Notes under the pieces: model-generated | Databases searched by the model: none | What the model was told of the DNA's origin: nothing | Seen by the model: the letters and a program-made list of their open reading frames with translations, nothing else | Made by a program: the position numbers and the translations under genes | Origin: Chryseobacterium sp. JV274 | Lineage (GTDB): Bacteria > Bacteroidota > Bacteroidia > Flavobacteriales > Weeksellaceae | DNA length: 64,000 bases | Reading direction: 5' to 3' | NCBI RefSeq assembly: GCF_903969135.1 | Contig: NZ_LR824569.1 | Coordinates: 5,105,001 to 5,169,000, forward strand | Part shown: positions 25,307 through 39,439 of the stretch, piece by piece | How positions within the stretch are numbered: the first letter of the stretch is position 1 | How the letters are laid out: each line of letters begins with the position of its first letter

Positions 25307-25663
25307 AGATTAAATTTTTGACTGAAAATGATATAAAAAAGATCATTTGAAGCCAGAAAATGAGCATCCATTATCGCTAAAAAAAAAGTTTTAAAAAACG
25401 CTTCAATTCCAGAATGAAAAACAATAACAAGTAGACAGTTTCTTTGAACTTGTCTGATTTTTTCACGACATATCTTGTGGATTTTGTAACAAAAAATGGG
25501 CAGGATAATCTAAATTATAATGTCTGTTGGGTGAAGAATGTATTTTTAATAATAACATAATCAATGGATTATGATTAAATAATTATTGTTTGCATAAAAT
25601 ATCTTTCATGTTTTTATAAAATACCTATATTTACCACCAAGGAGTTCTTAACATCTTCTTTAT
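25307..25663. other. AT-rich spacer upstream of cobalamin riboswitch
   Basis: About 350 bases between the response regulator and the riboswitch, presumably holding the promoter of the riboswitch RNA. No gene is seen and no clean -33/-7 pair could be assigned. Confidence 0.4.
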
Positions 25664-25885
25664 CAACCGAAACTGGTTACACTTAGCTGTGTCTTAAAAG
25701 GGAATCGTGTGCAAATCACGAACTGTCGCGCAACTGTAAGTAACATCAAGGTTTTTATCAAAAAAGGTCCACTGTATACCTCGTTATATGGGAAGGGCGA
25801 TAAAAACTGTTACAAGTCAGGAGACCTGCCTATTTCGAATTGACGATGCTTTCGCGGTCTGAAGCTTATAGTCAGGTATGATACG
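25664..25885 (+). promoter_or_regulatory. cobalamin (B12) riboswitch upstream of the methylcitrate-cycle genes
   Basis: All core elements are present in order: GGGAATCGTGTG, TCACGAACTGTCGCGCAACT, GTAAGTAAC, CCACTG, GGGAAGG and the B12 box CAAGTCAGGAGACCTGCC (25813-25830). After the box comes a GACGATGCTTTCGCGGTC hairpin (the P13-type element) conserved with the second riboswitch in this window. It lies about 200 bases before a 70-codon ORF and 420 before prpB. High B12 is expected to lower expression downstream. The choice between transcriptional and translational control is not clear, since no T-run terminator is seen. Confidence 0.9.
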
Positions 25886-26083
25886 ATATGGATAACAGTG
25901 GGATCAATATATTTTGTCAGCTCGTGTTATTTTTGTGATGCAGATAAGTAGTGGAGCGGTATGCTCTTTCATTATCGTGTATTCATCGTATTTTTCCTTT
26001 TCCATATTTTTCTTTCTCACAGGCATTGTGAAGTTTATCAGGAACTTTTTATGAGGATTTAATCAATATAAAAAGTTAAAAAA

Positions 26084-26296
26084 ATGTATCCATTCGATTT
26101 CGATTATTCATACAGCAGCAGACTTGGAAATAAACAGATTGGCACGGAGATAATGGCTCTGAATTCCGGATTACAAAAATCGATTAAAACAAATCAGTTA
26201 CTTTTTGATTTCCTTTTTAACATATCATGCAATGCCGGTAGCTATTGTGATGCCTGTTCATGGTTTTCTGTAAAACAAATTTCAACTAAACAATAA
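26084..26296 (+). CDS. 70-codon ORF between riboswitch and prpB, unknown
   Basis: Starts at an ATG behind an A-rich stretch of the same kind as before metE and ends 8 bases before prpB. The product ([20 protein letters not shown]... ending [14 protein letters not shown] then SVKQISTKQ) has three cysteines near the end, a tyrosine-rich start and no membrane helix or known domain. Its place as first gene after the riboswitch suggests a real gene or a regulatory leader ORF coupled to prpB. I do not recognise it. Confidence 0.45.
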
Positions 26297-26304
26297 ATAT
26301 TATA

Positions 26305-27201
26305 ATGACTACAAGTGAAAGTTTGAAGTCTCCCGGTATGAAATTTCGGGAGGCCATGCGAAAAGAAAGTCCTCTTCAGATTGTTGGCACCATCAATGCC
26401 AATCATGCATTGTTAGCACAGCAGGTAGGTTTTAATGCAATTTATCTTTCAGGAGGCGGTGTTGCTGCGGGTTCTCTGGGGATTCCGGATCTAGGAATTA
26501 CCACGCTGGAAGATGTATTGATTGATGTTCAGCGTATCACGAATGTTTGCGATGTACCGCTCATGGTAGATGTTGATACCGGATTCGGACCTTCAGCATT
26601 CAATGTGGCAAGAACTGTAAAGTCACTGATTAAAGCTGGAGCTGCGGCCCTCCATATTGAAGACCAGGTAGGGGCAAAACGCTGTGGACACCGCCCGGGA
26701 AAAGAAGTGGTAACCAAAGAAGAAATGGTAGACAGACTGAAAGCAGCGGTAGATGCCCGTACCGATGAAAATTTTGTAATTGGTGCCCGTACCGATGCAT
26801 TTGCTAATGAAGGATTGGAAAAAACATTGGAAAGAGCAGCAGCTTATAAAGAAGCTGGAGCAGATTTTATTTTTGCAGAAGCCGTTCCTGACTTAAGCTT
26901 TTATCACAAGTTTGTTGAAGCTGCAGGAGTTCCAGTGCTGGCTAATATTACCGAATTCGGGATGATCAGAATGTACACGGTGGAAGAATTAAAAAATGCA
27001 GGCGTGGGACTGATCCTTTATCCGCTTTCTGCTTTCCGTGCTGCCAATAAAGCCGCTCAAAATGTATATGAACACCTTCGTAAAGACGGAACACAGATCA
27101 ATGTATTGGATACTATGCAAACCAGGGAAGAACTCTATCAAAGCATCGGATACTATGACTACGAACAAAAATTAGACAACCTTTTTAAACAAAATAATTG
27201 A
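26305..27201 (+). CDS. prpB: methylisocitrate lyase
   Basis: A 298-residue enzyme of the isocitrate lyase/PEP mutase family. It splits 2-methylisocitrate into pyruvate and succinate, the last step of the methylcitrate cycle. Family signs: [48 protein letters not shown] (active-site Cys loop), [12 protein letters not shown] and [13 protein letters not shown]. The length is normal for PrpB. The prpC start (27204) follows the stop by two bases. Confidence 0.95.
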
Positions 27202-27203
27202 TA

Positions 27204-28358
27204 ATGTCAACTAACAGTGAACCCACATTTAAACCTAAAAAAAGCGTTGCGCTTTCAGGGGTAGCAGCAGGTAATACGGCTCTTTGCAGTGTCGGAAAAA
27301 GTGGAAACGATCTCCATTACAGAGGATATGATATTCTGGATCTGGCAGAGAAAGCACAGTTTGAAGAAGTAGCTTATCTTTTGATCTACGGCCAGCTGCC
27401 AACCGGAGCACAATTGAAAAACTATAAAGCCAAACTAAAATCTTTGAGAGGGCTGCCTCATTCTGTGAGAAATATTCTTAAGAGTATTCCTGCAGCGGCT
27501 CATCCCATGGATGTCATGCGTTCCATGGTTTCTGCTATCGGAAGTATTCAGCCAGAAAAAGATGATCATAATATGGCGGGAGCAAGAGATATTGCAGACA
27601 AATTACTGGCATCTTTCAGCTCAGGTCTGTTATATTGGTATCATTATACCCATAATGGAAAAGAAATTGACGTAGAAACCGATGATGATACAATAGGAGG
27701 GCATTTCCTTCACCTGCTGCATGGGAAAAAACCTGCAGATTCCTGGGTAAAAGCAATGGAAATCTCGTTAAACCTCTATGCAGAACATGAATTTAATGCC
27801 TCAACATTTACCAGCCGTGTGATTGCCGGAACAGGATCTGATATTTACTCTGCAATTACCGGAGCAATTGGTGCTTTGAGAGGACCTAAACATGGTGGGG
27901 CAAATGAAGTTGCTTTTGAAATCCAAAGCCGCTACAATTCTCCTGATGAAGCAGAAAGCGATATTCGCAAGCGTATTGTGAACAAAGAAGTGATTATTGG
28001 CTTTGGACACCCGGTGTATACCATTTCAGATCCGAGAAACGTCGTGATTAAAAAAGTGGCGAAAGAACTTTCTGAAGAAGCAGGAGATATGCTGCTGTAT
28101 AATATTGCTGAAAGATTGGAAACGATCATGTGGGAAGAAAAGAAAATGTTCCCGAATCTGGATTGGTTCTCCGCTGTTTCTTACCATCTGATGGGAGTGC
28201 CTACTCTGATGTTTACTCCGTTATTTGTCATTTCAAGAGTGACCGGATGGAGTGCTCATATTATAGAACAGAGACAGGATGGAAAGATTATCCGTCCAAG
28301 TGCCAATTATACAGGGCCTGAAAACAAAGAATTTGTGTCCATCAACGACCGGAAATAA
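27204..28358 (+). CDS. prpC: 2-methylcitrate synthase
   Basis: A 384-residue citrate synthase-family enzyme (start ATG 27204; an in-frame TTG 6 bases upstream is unlikely). Signs: [40 protein letters not shown] (His), [13 protein letters not shown] (His), [14 protein letters not shown] (His/Asp region) and a C-terminal [16 protein letters not shown]. Citrate synthases and methylcitrate synthases are not told apart by these motifs; the prpB/prpD context decides for propionyl-CoA plus oxaloacetate. Confidence 0.9.
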
Positions 28359-28452: not shown

Positions 28453-29904
28453 ATGAGTTCACACATCTCAAACGAAAGACCACAACCCGATCAGGTATTA
28501 ACAGACATTGCAGACTATGTTTTAAATTACGAAATTAAAAATGACTTAGCATGGAAGACCGCTCACTACTGTCTTCTGGATACAATCGGCTGTGGGCTGG
28601 AAGCATTGACTTACCCGGCATGTACAAAACTTTTAGGACCTGTGGTAAAAGGGACAGTAGTTCCTAACGGCGCAAAAGTACCGGGTACCCAATTCCAGCT
28701 GGATCCCATTCAGGCAGCGTTCAATATCGGAGCGATCATCCGTTGGCTGGACTTCAATGATACATGGCTGGCAGCAGAATGGGGACATCCTTCTGATAAC
28801 CTTGGAGGGATTCTGGCGACCGCAGACTGGTTATCCAGAACAAATATTGCAGAAGGAAAATCACCTTTAAAAATGAAGAAGGTACTGGAAGCAATGATCA
28901 TGGCTCACGAAATTCAGGGCGTAATGGCATTGGAAAATTCATTCAATAAAGTAGGACTGGATCACGTTTTATTGGTAAAATTAGCTTCCACAGCAGTTGT
29001 AGGAAAGCTGGTCGGATTAAACCGTGATGAAATTGTCAATGCCGTGTCACTGGCTTTTGTGGACGGACAGTCTTTAAGAACTTACCGTCACGCTCCCAAT
29101 ACAGGTTCCCGTAAATCATGGGCGGCAGGAGATGCTACCTCAAGGGCAGTACGTCTTGCCCTGATTGCAAAAACAGGAGAAATGGGCTATCCATCTGTAT
29201 TGACAGCAAAAACATGGGGATTCTATGATGTTTCCTTCAAAGGGAATGAATTCAAATTCCAGAGAGAATACAGTTCTTATGTAATGGAAAATGTACTCTT
29301 TAAAATTTCTTTCCCTGCCGAATTTCACTCGCAGACTGCAGTAGAAGCCGCAATGACATTACACGCAACTTTAAGAGGCCTTGGAAAAACAACAAATGAT
29401 ATCGAAAAAATTACCATCCGTACCCATGAAGCTGCTATTAGAATTATTGACAAAAAAGGTCCGTTAAATAACCCTGCTGACCGTGACCACTGCATCCAAT
29501 ATATGGTAGCTGTACCATTGATCTATGGAAGATTAACCGCTGCCGATTACGAAGATAACATCGCTTCAGATCCAAGAATTGATGTACTTCGTGACAAAAT
29601 TGAATGTGTGGAAGATGTTCAGTTTACTGCAGATTATCATGATCCGGAAAAACGCTCCATTGCCAATGCGATGACGGTAGAACTTAATGACGGAACTGTT
29701 TTAGACGAAATAGTGGTAGAATATCCTATTGGTCACAAACGAAGAAGAGACGAAGGTATTCCTGAACTGATCAAGAAATATAAAGTCAATCTTGCCCGTA
29801 TTTTCCCGGAAAAACAACAAAGAACAATCCTTGAAAATTCATTGGAATATGACACATTAGTGAATCTTAACGTCAATGAATTTGTAGATTTTTTAGTCAT
29901 TTAA
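28453..29904 (+). CDS. prpD: 2-methylcitrate dehydratase
   Basis: A 483-residue MmgE/PrpD-family protein, of normal length. Signs: [52 protein letters not shown]-like [37 protein letters not shown] and [14 protein letters not shown]. It makes 2-methylaconitate from 2-methylcitrate. No acnD/prpF pair is seen in the window, so hydration to methylisocitrate would be by PrpD-type activity or an aconitase elsewhere. It is 94 bases after prpC. Confidence 0.95.
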
Positions 29905-36712: not shown

Positions 36713-36784
36713 CACAAGATTAAAAACTTTTACTGATGACTATCATTACAGGTAAAAGTACAGTTCTTTAGAGATACTTCATCA

Positions 36785-36992
36785 AACAGGAAAGGTTTTA
36801 CGTAACGTAGATTAATAGGGAATCGTGTGAGAATCACGAGCTGTCGCGCAACTGTAAGTAACATACCAAAGGTTTCTGTCCTTATATATCCACTGCCAAA
36901 AGCGGGAAGGATGATGGAAACTGTTACAAGTCAGGAGACCTGCCTTTACTGAATTGACGATGCTTTCGCGGTCTGAAGCTTTGGGTCATACA
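36785..36992 (+). promoter_or_regulatory. cobalamin (B12) riboswitch upstream of metE
   Basis: Same ordered elements as the first: GGGAATCGTGTG, TCACGAGCTGTCGCGCAACT, GTAAGTAACA, CCACTGCC, CGGGAAGG and B12 box CAAGTCAGGAGACCTGCC (36927-36944), then the GACGATGCTTTCGCGGTC hairpin. About 31 bases after the box are identical to the first riboswitch. metE starts about 145 bases after this. B12 repression of metE is a classic use of this riboswitch. Confidence 0.93.
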
Positions 36993-37135: not shown

Positions 37136-39439
37136 ATGCAAACTCACATTCTGGGCTATCCGCGTATTGGTAGCAAAAGAGAACTCAAAAAAGCCTGCGA
37201 GCAATATTGGTCAGGTAAAATCCTTTTGGAAGAACTTCTGAATACGGGCAGAAATATCTGTAACCAAAACTGGAACATTCAGAAAGAAGCCGGTATAGAC
37301 CTTATTCCCTGTAATGATTTTTCATATTATGATCAGGTATTGGATATGAGTCTTGTGGTAGGGGCAATTCCCACACGTTATCATGAAGTAGTGCTTAAAA
37401 AAAACAATTCTGAGCTGGATCTTTATTTTGCCATGGCAAGAGGATATCAGAAAGAAGGACTGGATATCACAGCGATGGAAATGACAAAATGGTTTGATAC
37501 CAATTATCACTATATCGTTCCCGAGTTTTATAAAAATCAACAGTTTAAACTGAGTTCAGATAAAATTTTCAATGAATTTGCAGGAGCAAAGCAGGCAGGA
37601 ATCAATGCAAAACCGGTCATTATCGGACTAGTTTCTTATCTGTTGTTAGGAAAAGAGAAAGAAGAAGGATTTGATAAACTGGATCTCGCTGGAAACCTTC
37701 TTTCCGTATATACAGAGATTTTAACAAAACTTCAGGAGCAGGGTGCAGAATGGATTCAGTTTGATGAACCTTTTCTGGCATTGGATTTAACGGAGAAAGC
37801 AAAAGAAACATATCATTTTATTTATACCGAAATAAGAAAACGCTTTCCGAAACTGAAATTTATTATTGCCACTTATTTTGACGGATTAAAAGATAATGGA
37901 TCACTTGCGGTATCACTTCCTGTGAATACTTTACACATTGATTTGGTTAGAAACCCTGAACAGTTAGATGATATTCTGAATGTCATTCCGGAAAGCTTAG
38001 GCCTTTCATTGGGTGTGGTTGACGGAAGAAATATCTGGAAAAATGATTATGAAAAGTCTTTGTCTTTCATTCAAAAAGCAGTTGAGAAATTAGGATCTGA
38101 AAGGGTTTTAATTGCTCCTTCCTCTTCATTACTTCATTCACCTTGTGATCTGGATTTTGAAACCACACTTAATCCGGAAATTAAAAACTGGCTGGCTTTT
38201 GCCAAACAAAAAGTGGCAGAAGTGGTAACGCTTAAAGAACTGGCATCCGGAACAGAGAATAAACAGATTCTTGCCGCTTTTGAAGATAATAAAAAAGCAA
38301 TTGCAAGCAGAAGAACATCTTCTCTTATTCATAATGATGACGTGAAGCAAAGAGCAAATGCGGTTACTGAAAAAGATGCTCAAAGGATAAATACTTTCAA
38401 AATCCGTAAAGAAGAACAACAGAAAGTACTGCAGCTTCCTTTATTCCCAACAACAACCATTGGGTCATTCCCGCAGACCACTGAGGTAAGAAGCTGGAGA
38501 GCAAAATTCAAAAAAGGAGAGCTGACGGCAGAGCAGTATGATACCTTACTGAAAGAAGAGACCCAGAGAACGATTAACTGGCAGGAAGAAATAGGGATAG
38601 ATGTATTGGTTCACGGGGAATTTGAACGTAATGATATGGTGGAATATTTCGGAGAGCAGCTGGAAGGTTTTGTATTTACAAAAAATGGCTGGGTACAAAG
38701 CTACGGAAGCCGTTGTGTAAAGCCTCCTGTGATCTTCGGTGATGTTTCCCGCCCGACACCAATGACGGTATATTGGTCCCAATATGCACAATCCCAGACT
38801 GAAAAATGGGTAAAAGGAATGCTCACAGGTCCTGTTACGATCTTACAATGGTCTTTTGTACGTGATGATCAGCCCCGTTCAGAGACGTGTAAGCAAATTG
38901 CTCTGGCTATCCGTGATGAGGTTGCGGATCTTGAAAAAGCAGGAATCAGAATTATTCAGATTGATGAGCCTGCGATAAGAGAAGGGCTTCCGTTAAGAAA
39001 GACAGACTGGCAGAACTATCTGAAATGGGCCGTAGAAGCTTTCAGAATTTCAGCAAGCGGAGTGGAAGATGCTACACAGATTCATACCCATATGTGCTAT
39101 TCGGAATTCAATGATATTATTGAAAATATTGCTGATATGGATGCAGATGTGATTACCATAGAATGTTCCCGTTCTCAGATGGAACTGCTGAATGCTTTTG
39201 CAGATTTCAGATATCCGAATGAAATTGGTCCCGGAGTATACGATATCCATTCCCCAAGGGTTCCGTCAAAAGAAGAAATGATTGAACTGTTGAGAAAAGC
39301 TCAAAACGTAATTCCTGCCAATCAGCTTTGGGTAAATCCGGACTGCGGACTGAAAACAAGACACTGGGAAGAAACAGAAAAAGCTTTGATTGCAATGGTG
39401 GCCGCGGCTAAAGAAGCCTCCGTAGAATATGCACTTTAA
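37136..39439 (+). CDS. metE: cobalamin-independent methionine synthase
   Basis: A 767-residue protein of full MetE length, with two barrels. N-terminal: LGYPRIGSKRELKKACEQYW. C-terminal: PTTTIGSFPQTTEVRSWRAK, GEFERNDMVEYFGEQLEGF, GSRCVKPPVIFGDVSRPTPM, MLTGPVTILQWSFVRDDQPR, QIDEPAIREGLP, THMCYSEFNDI (zinc His/Cys) and WVNPDCGLKTR (zinc Cys). It transfers a methyl group from methyl-tetrahydropteroyl-polyglutamate to homocysteine without B12. A cobalamin riboswitch lies in its leader. Confidence 0.97.
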   Translation: MQTHILGYPRIGSKRELKKACEQYWSGKILLEELLNTGRNICNQNWNIQKEAGIDLIPCNDFSYYDQVLDMSLVVGAIPTRYHEVVLKKNNSELDLYFAMARGYQKEGLDITAMEMTKWFDTNYHYIVPEFYKNQQFKLSSDKIFNEFAGAKQAGINAKPVIIGLVSYLLLGKEKEEGFDKLDLAGNLLSVYTEILTKLQEQGAEWIQFDEPFLALDLTEKAKETYHFIYTEIRKRFPKLKFIIATYFDGLKDNGSLAVSLPVNTLHIDLVRNPEQLDDILNVIPESLGLSLGVVDGRNIWKNDYEKSLSFIQKAVEKLGSERVLIAPSSSLLHSPCDLDFETTLNPEIKNWLAFAKQKVAEVVTLKELASGTENKQILAAFEDNKKAIASRRTSSLIHNDDVKQRANAVTEKDAQRINTFKIRKEEQQKVLQLPLFPTTTIGSFPQTTEVRSWRAKFKKGELTAEQYDTLLKEETQRTINWQEEIGIDVLVHGEFERNDMVEYFGEQLEGFVFTKNGWVQSYGSRCVKPPVIFGDVSRPTPMTVYWSQYAQSQTEKWVKGMLTGPVTILQWSFVRDDQPRSETCKQIALAIRDEVADLEKAGIRIIQIDEPAIREGLPLRKTDWQNYLKWAVEAFRISASGVEDATQIHTHMCYSEFNDIIENIADMDADVITIECSRSQMELLNAFADFRYPNEIGPGVYDIHSPRVPSKEEMIELLRKAQNVIPANQLWVNPDCGLKTRHWEETEKALIAMVAAAKEASVEYAL

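Follow-up and report, generated by a model that had tools for sequence, protein, structure and literature searches.

A complete cobalamin riboswitch before the methylcitrate cycle genes prpBCD of Chryseobacterium sp. JV274, with a predicted role in the choice between two propionyl-CoA routes

The propionate shunt of Caenorhabditis elegans is a B12-free propionate route which is opened at low B12. In Mycobacterium tuberculosis, B12 represses prpR-prpDC-metE, and PrpC and PrpD are undetected in its presence (PMC10924821). Isozymes of B12-dependent enzymes have been named as a class of riboswitch target in a study of 255 genomes (PMC3766115); the terms propion, methylcitrate and prp are absent from its main text. 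No report of a cobalamin riboswitch before prp genes was found in the accessible part of the open-licence literature, and such a mention may exist in the surveys of 2003–2004. In the preliminary description of the locus, too, the pairing was not known as a textbook case. B12 repression of prpDC in the absence of a riboswitch there is known in M. tuberculosis (PMC10924821; PMC4428469).

The DNA analysed here (the window) is a stretch of 64,000 nucleotides from the genome of Chryseobacterium sp. JV274, which consists of a single contig of 5.23 Mb. The best-matching named prpB loci were those of Chryseobacterium at 97% identity (prpB scan, best 80 of 152 loci). The window was found to possess a complete cobalamin riboswitch before prpBCD, which is very probably an AdoCbl OFF switch choosing between two routes for propionyl-CoA; the ligand, the direction of control and the route through the leader are those which we infer. 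With AdoCbl plentiful, the riboswitch would shut prpBCD off and, B12 being sufficient, propionyl-CoA would pass through the B12-dependent methylmalonyl-CoA mutase. Only with B12 short would prpBCD be on and propionyl-CoA be taken by the B12-free methylcitrate cycle.

The riboswitch, its leader and the prp genes

The aptamer was matched by RF00174 from end to end (25657–25847; model positions 1–189 of 189, not cut off; gathering threshold 31.5, E-value 7.9e-23), starting 7 nt earlier than had been noted before. The B12 box GTCAGGAGACCTGCC is present, and the RF00174 alignment contains both the box, as CAGGAGACCUGCC, and the conserved CCACUG core. The features of the locus are collected in Table 1. 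The preliminary description of a complete B12 riboswitch with its B12 box, a short ORF, prpB, prpC and, 94 nt on, prpD was thus borne out by the RF00174 match, the open frame and the NCBIfam matches, each of prpB, prpC and prpD being above its cut-off. The ATG of prpC was read from the sequence, with the NCBIfam scan of this gene beginning at 27207.

Table 1. Features of the prp and metE loci in the window.
Feature	Position	Strand	Evidence or remark
Putative promoter -7-like TATATTTA, Bacteroidota type	25626..25633	+	8 letters conserved before aptamer
Cobalamin riboswitch aptamer, RF00174	25657..25847	+	96.6 bits
L5 loop letters CGCG	25727..25730	+	
P13-like hairpin GCTTTCGCGGTCTGAAGC	25848..25865	+	loop CGCG at 25853–25856 able to pair with L5
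Hairpin then U tract, terminator-like	25878..25935	+	-10.1 kcal/mol, 0/20 shuffles as good
TTGTGAAG element	26026..26033	+	complementary to P13 5' side including G-U pairs (by eye)
AU hairpin AACTTTTTAT...ATAAAAAGTT, just 5' of small ORF	26043..26077	+	seen in sequences
Small ORF, 70 codons, stop 8 nt 5' of prpB start	26084..26296	+	open frame
prpB, 2-methylisocitrate lyase	26305..27201	+	NF008455 508.9 bits, cut-off 353
prpC, 2-methylcitrate synthase	27204..28358	+	NF009006 700.2 bits, cut-off 550
prpD, 2-methylcitrate dehydratase	28453..29904	+	NF006943 881.2 bits, cut-off 575
Second cobalamin riboswitch, before metE	36776..36961	+	RF00174 96.3 bits
metE	37136–39439		NF003556 1169.1 bits

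A kissing arrangement of L5 and L13 has been described for the cobalamin riboswitch family (PMC9600662). By sequence, such a pair would be available in 23/23 prp leaders, in which the L5 and L13 letters are identical and complementary. Both btuB riboswitches of the host genome have different letters at these loops and pairing is still possible, with 4 and 3 pairs by eye. The sequence TATATTTA, which we take to be a putative -7-like promoter element of Bacteroidota type, is identical in the window, 18 named Chryseobacterium leaders and 3 Elizabethkingia leaders, at ~24–38 nt 5' of the aptamer.

Genes for methylmalonate-semialdehyde dehydrogenase, an acyl-CoA dehydrogenase (over no single cut-off), 3-hydroxyisobutyryl-CoA hydrolase and 3-hydroxyisobutyrate dehydrogenase are located 3' of prpD. 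This group looks like a set for valine breakdown, which is a source of propionyl-CoA. Between 28300 and 36800 there was no excess of terminator-like sites (6, with 6.7 expected from shuffles), and metE lies ~11 kb from prpB. The valine-degradation genes, the second RF00174 match before metE and three more in the genome had been missed in the preliminary description.

The aptamer end and the prpB start are 457 nt apart in the window. Hairpins with a 3' U tract reached -6 kcal/mol or better in 14/19 Chryseobacterium prp leaders, but in only 8/19 were 0 or 1 of 20 shuffles as good; none was found in the 4 Elizabethkingia and Pedobacter prp leaders. The exact form of the hairpin in the window had a probability of 0.11 when the aptamer and leader were folded together. 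An antiterminator formed by the CCACUG core and the 5' arm of this hairpin was rejected (7 complementary bases in the window; probability 0.0 in 15/15 leaders), and a search for aptamer-leader duplexes was too permissive for any result to be drawn from it. The letters CAGGT, 3' of the P13-like hairpin, were predicted to pair with ACCTG of the B12 box with a probability of 0.42–0.81 in 10/15 leaders and ~0 in the other 5. The TTGTGAAG element is a possible anti-L13 candidate on the basis of its complementarity. Elements of this type were found in 18/19 Chryseobacterium prp leaders, 0/4 other prp leaders and 9/10 metE leaders, and the start of the small ORF was detected in 16/19 Chryseobacterium prp leaders, both with patterns composed after the sequences had been viewed, which favours agreement.

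The leader ends with GCATTGTGAAG, the AU hairpin and AAAAAAATG, and a similar layout is seen 5' of metE start codons, so that the start of the small ORF corresponds to that of metE. The chance of 70 open codons in this frame is ~0.004, and the end of the ORF is no more than 15 nt from the start of prpB in 13/19 Chryseobacterium prp leaders; it is missing from all 4 Elizabethkingia and Pedobacter leaders. A conserved function of its peptide is unsupported (dN/dS 0.38–1.24 over 20 pairs), and the sole Pfam match, to DotA, was rejected at 19.8 bits, below the cut-off of 25. With the small ORF stopping at the start codon of prpB, an effect on it would be carried on to prpB, and a translation relay from the small ORF to prpB is plausible from this arrangement. 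The favoured route to prpB is control inside the leader, which may act through the U-tract hairpin or where the small ORF begins.

A long leader with a separate open frame would also suit a real riboswitch whose effect is limited to the small ORF or the leader RNA, with prpBCD being transcribed from a promoter of their own inside the 457 nt. A motif which we take to be a Bacteroidota-type promoter occurs in 2/23 prp leaders (L023, L026), and a scan of the window leader with this motif found none. The riboswitch is located 198–462 nt from prpB, measured from the aptamer end, in 22/22 riboswitch-bearing loci (best 80 of 152) and tracks the mutase (see below), which a riboswitch unrelated to prp leaves unexplained, and we regard a separate promoter as improbable. 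Of the terminator and separate promoter which the preliminary description had named as speaking against its reading, the terminator part has a counterpart in the U-tract hairpin, which may itself be part of the switch; for the promoter part, there is no motif in the window leader and TATATTTA lies 5' of the aptamer.

Non-classical cobalamin riboswitches exist, and one in Listeria is described as controlling an antisense RNA (PMC11575231). That the prp riboswitch turns the genes on with B12, or acts through antisense RNA, is nevertheless very improbable, as the minus-strand frames over the window leader are short (40 and 54 aa), the layout is like that of the metE leader and the prp enzymes form the B12-free route. 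We return below to the OFF direction, for which the metE riboswitches also speak.

Methylmalonyl-CoA mutase in genomes with the prp riboswitch

The host genome encodes a full methylmalonyl-CoA mutase (725-aa frame, PF01642 and PF02310, NF006944 1250.5 bits), so that the B12-dependent counterpart of the methylcitrate route is present in the same genome as the prp riboswitch. A fused IcmF (1654.2 bits) and a 399-aa small-subunit-like protein are also encoded. Five RF00174 matches were found in this genome, at a hotdog thioesterase, two TonB receptors (taken as BtuB), prpB and metE. CbiD was not found in the host genome, in line with the 0.6% of Bacteroidetes predicted to be cobamide makers (PMC6461909).

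The named survey comprised the best 80 of 152 prpB loci, all from Bacteroidota by title except one titled only bacterium A37T11. A riboswitch just upstream of prpB on the plus strand was found in 22/80 of these, namely in 18/18 loci labelled Chryseobacterium, 3/3 of Elizabethkingia and 1/4 of Pedobacter (P. cryoconitis M2T3). At three further loci, from Mucilaginibacter (L036, L041) and Chitinophagaceae (L051), a riboswitch near prpB is on the other strand and precedes metE. A full-length mutase (a match of 740 bits or more, searched in 79 of the 80 genomes with L073 left out) was found in 21/22 genomes with the prp riboswitch and 1/57 of the others (Fisher p 6e-17, relatedness ignored). The riboswitch at the B12-free alternative is thus found almost only where the B12-dependent counterpart exists. 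The exceptions are Hydrotalea, with a mutase but without a riboswitch at prp, and Chryseobacterium sp. ISL-6, with the prp riboswitch, IcmF and the small subunit, in which a full-length mutase was not found. Ilyomonas, without a prp riboswitch, has a mutase match interrupted by two stops (444.7 and 153.4 bits), which would be a further exception if counted.

A search for all riboswitches covered 39 of the 80 genomes and gave 78 matches: 60 were classified by the downstream gene, 6 were classified separately, 4 were the known prp ones and 8 were set aside (5 from G120 and 1 each from G140, G152 and G156). RF00174 matches occur elsewhere in 27/35 of the searched genomes without a prp riboswitch, which indicates that the lack of a riboswitch at prp is specific.

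In a family sample of 120 genomes, 10 have prpB at 80% identity or more, of which 6/10 have a riboswitch 0.3–0.5 kb upstream among the matches listed. A full-length mutase is present in 6/6 of the riboswitch-bearing genomes vs 0/4 of the riboswitch-free ones, for which 2.5 kb or more was read upstream of prpB. Several sample genomes share coordinates with the named set, so that the two surveys overlap; the riboswitch-bearing lineages are related and are not independent tests, and with most of the 22 loci belonging to one clade the association rests on few independent events.

Alternatively, the riboswitch may mark B12 economy in general, the tie to the mutase being only shared ancestry of Chryseobacterium and Elizabethkingia. 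The two related genera account for 21/22 riboswitch-bearing loci, and riboswitches of the same genomes are also located at btuB-like genes and metE. However, the tie is repeated within a species of another lineage, as P. cryoconitis M2T3 possesses both mutase and prp riboswitch and P. cryoconitis S3M1 neither. Similarly G023, which shares its genus group with four riboswitch-bearing Elizabethkingia-like genomes, has lost or lacks both the riboswitch and the full-length mutase. Shared ancestry as the whole explanation is therefore unlikely and, even if true, would leave prpB under a B12 riboswitch.

The mutase-type protein of M2T3 has 515 aa (TIGR00641 758.9 bits; NF006944 659.4 bits, cut-off 876) and carries the tyrosine and arginine motifs of methylmalonyl-CoA mutases. 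A separate 140-aa B12-binding protein is also encoded, and both are missing from S3M1. The Hydrotalea mutase is similar, the catalytic proteins of the two having 515–521 aa (659.4 and 664.2 of 876 bits) with a separate B12-binding protein. As they are below the full-length cut-off and have the B12-binding part as a separate protein, these could be another acyl-CoA mutase. The four riboswitches of M2T3 precede prpB, a thioesterase, a TonB receptor and a periplasmic binding protein. Three were found in S3M1, at the receptor and the binding protein as in M2T3 and at a methionine-synthase locus (L144) made up of a 91-aa metE-like piece and mesX.

IcmF was rejected as the B12-dependent counterpart, since IcmF-like matches occur both with and without a prp riboswitch and do not explain the pattern. 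In Myroides, of which one species was read (M. odoratus, L135:1723-4529), two adjacent PF01642 proteins of 477 and 453 aa have no B12-binding domain, and the larger is without what is presumably the arginine motif of mutases. The pair was not counted as a working mutase on these grounds; next to a uridine-kinase-like gene, it is a candidate for a decayed or repurposed mutase pair. If it does work as a mutase, there would be four more genomes with a mutase and without a prp riboswitch.

The preferred reading, in which the riboswitch selects between the mutase and the methylcitrate cycle, had been put forward in the preliminary description and is supported by the RF00174 match, the mutase gene, which that description had proposed to look for as mutA/mutB, and the prp-leader survey. 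The ligand, the OFF direction and a response of prpB to B12 are predictions.

Other riboswitch targets and origin of the prp riboswitch

The thioesterase of the host genome (PF03061 71.1 bits, cut-off 20.6) resembles YciA, below the curated cut-off (55.7 of 162 bits). A thioesterase of 93.7–100% identity is located behind a riboswitch in 12/12 genomes of the genus (50 riboswitch matches), at a distance of 102–120 nt (L001:1501-2183 and 11 more), and one is also found in M2T3 and ISL-6 (L141, L151). The remaining targets in the 12 genomes are btuB-like genes (12), second btuB-like genes (8), metE (10) and prpB (2), with other secreted proteins behind 6 of the 50 matches. A full-length mutase is present in all 12, and prpB at 80% identity or more was not found in two of them, G020 and G060. 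Among the 28 genomes of the named set that hold the 60 classified matches, the thioesterase is a target in one, ISL-6. Elizabethkingia miricola has a mutase, but of its five riboswitches the three examined do not precede a thioesterase (a fourth is at prp, and a fifth, below the cut-off, was set aside). The thioesterase target therefore tracks the mutase only in part. We infer that the enzyme may free CoA during B12 shortage.

Several other proteins were observed behind riboswitches. A family of secreted proteins of ~370 aa (L099, L102, L115, L116, L119), with only a Por_Secre_tail domain in L099, contains candidate B12 uptake or surface proteins. In L101 the gene encodes a DUF5074 protein with a secretion tail, which may be a BtuG-like surface protein that binds B12. 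Genes for mesX (PF08908) were found in L177 (Pedobacter sp. BAL39) and L144 (P. cryoconitis S3M1), so that another B12-free methionine route may be under riboswitch control.

In a midpoint-rooted tree of 78 riboswitches, aligned by sequence only, the prp and metE riboswitches formed one group (0.993). The prp riboswitch of Pedobacter was placed among those of metE (0.819) and not with the remaining prp riboswitches, which were themselves only weakly grouped (0.323). Such a placement is consistent with recruitment of the prp riboswitch from metE leaders, possibly on more than one occasion. The closeness of metE to prpB in the window and in L036, L041 and L051, where the riboswitch-led metE is on the other strand, offers a possible account of how prp acquired a metE-type riboswitch. 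As metE is a known OFF target (PMC9600662), the grouping is counted in favour of an OFF switch at prp.

A wider proposal, on which we are almost evenly divided and lean slightly against, is that of a B12-scarcity regulon, in which riboswitches would switch on the methylcitrate cycle and a YciA-like CoA-freeing thioesterase and would come and go with the mutase. The prp riboswitch would have arisen from metE leaders at least twice, and the relay ORF of Chryseobacterium would be kept open for translation to the prpB start and not for its peptide.

Significance and comparison with known systems

If the locus works as predicted, one RNA picks between two complete propionyl-CoA pathways by the availability of a scavenged vitamin, which would add an alternative pathway to the targets of cobalamin riboswitches, alongside uptake, synthesis and single isozymes. 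A single transcript would then report on the B12 status of these bacteria. The thioesterase, itself behind a riboswitch of this type, is an unexplained target which can be tested directly.

The metE riboswitch is similar to that at prp in RNA family and in the logic of shutting off a B12-free alternative, and that of the host genome also has a related leader layout and is grouped with it in the tree. However, metE is one isozyme, whereas a whole alternative pathway lies behind the prp riboswitch, with a long leader and, in most Chryseobacterium, a small ORF. A B12-free enzyme is also located behind the ribonucleotide reductase riboswitches of Ilyomonas (L164) and Hydrotalea (L162), both PF00268; in contrast to prp, these belong to another metabolism, and neither organism has a riboswitch at prp. 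The propionate shunt of C. elegans differs in being that of an animal, with other enzymes and with transcription factors in place of a riboswitch.

Closest in outcome is M. tuberculosis, where, as predicted here, B12 lowers the methylcitrate enzymes and the mutase route is used (PMC10924821). Its riboswitches are reported only at metE and PPE2 (PMC4428469) and prpDC answers to the protein PrpR, unlike the arrangement in Chryseobacterium, which, if the prediction is true, would be an RNA-based answer of Bacteroidota to a problem which M. tuberculosis solves with no prp riboswitch.
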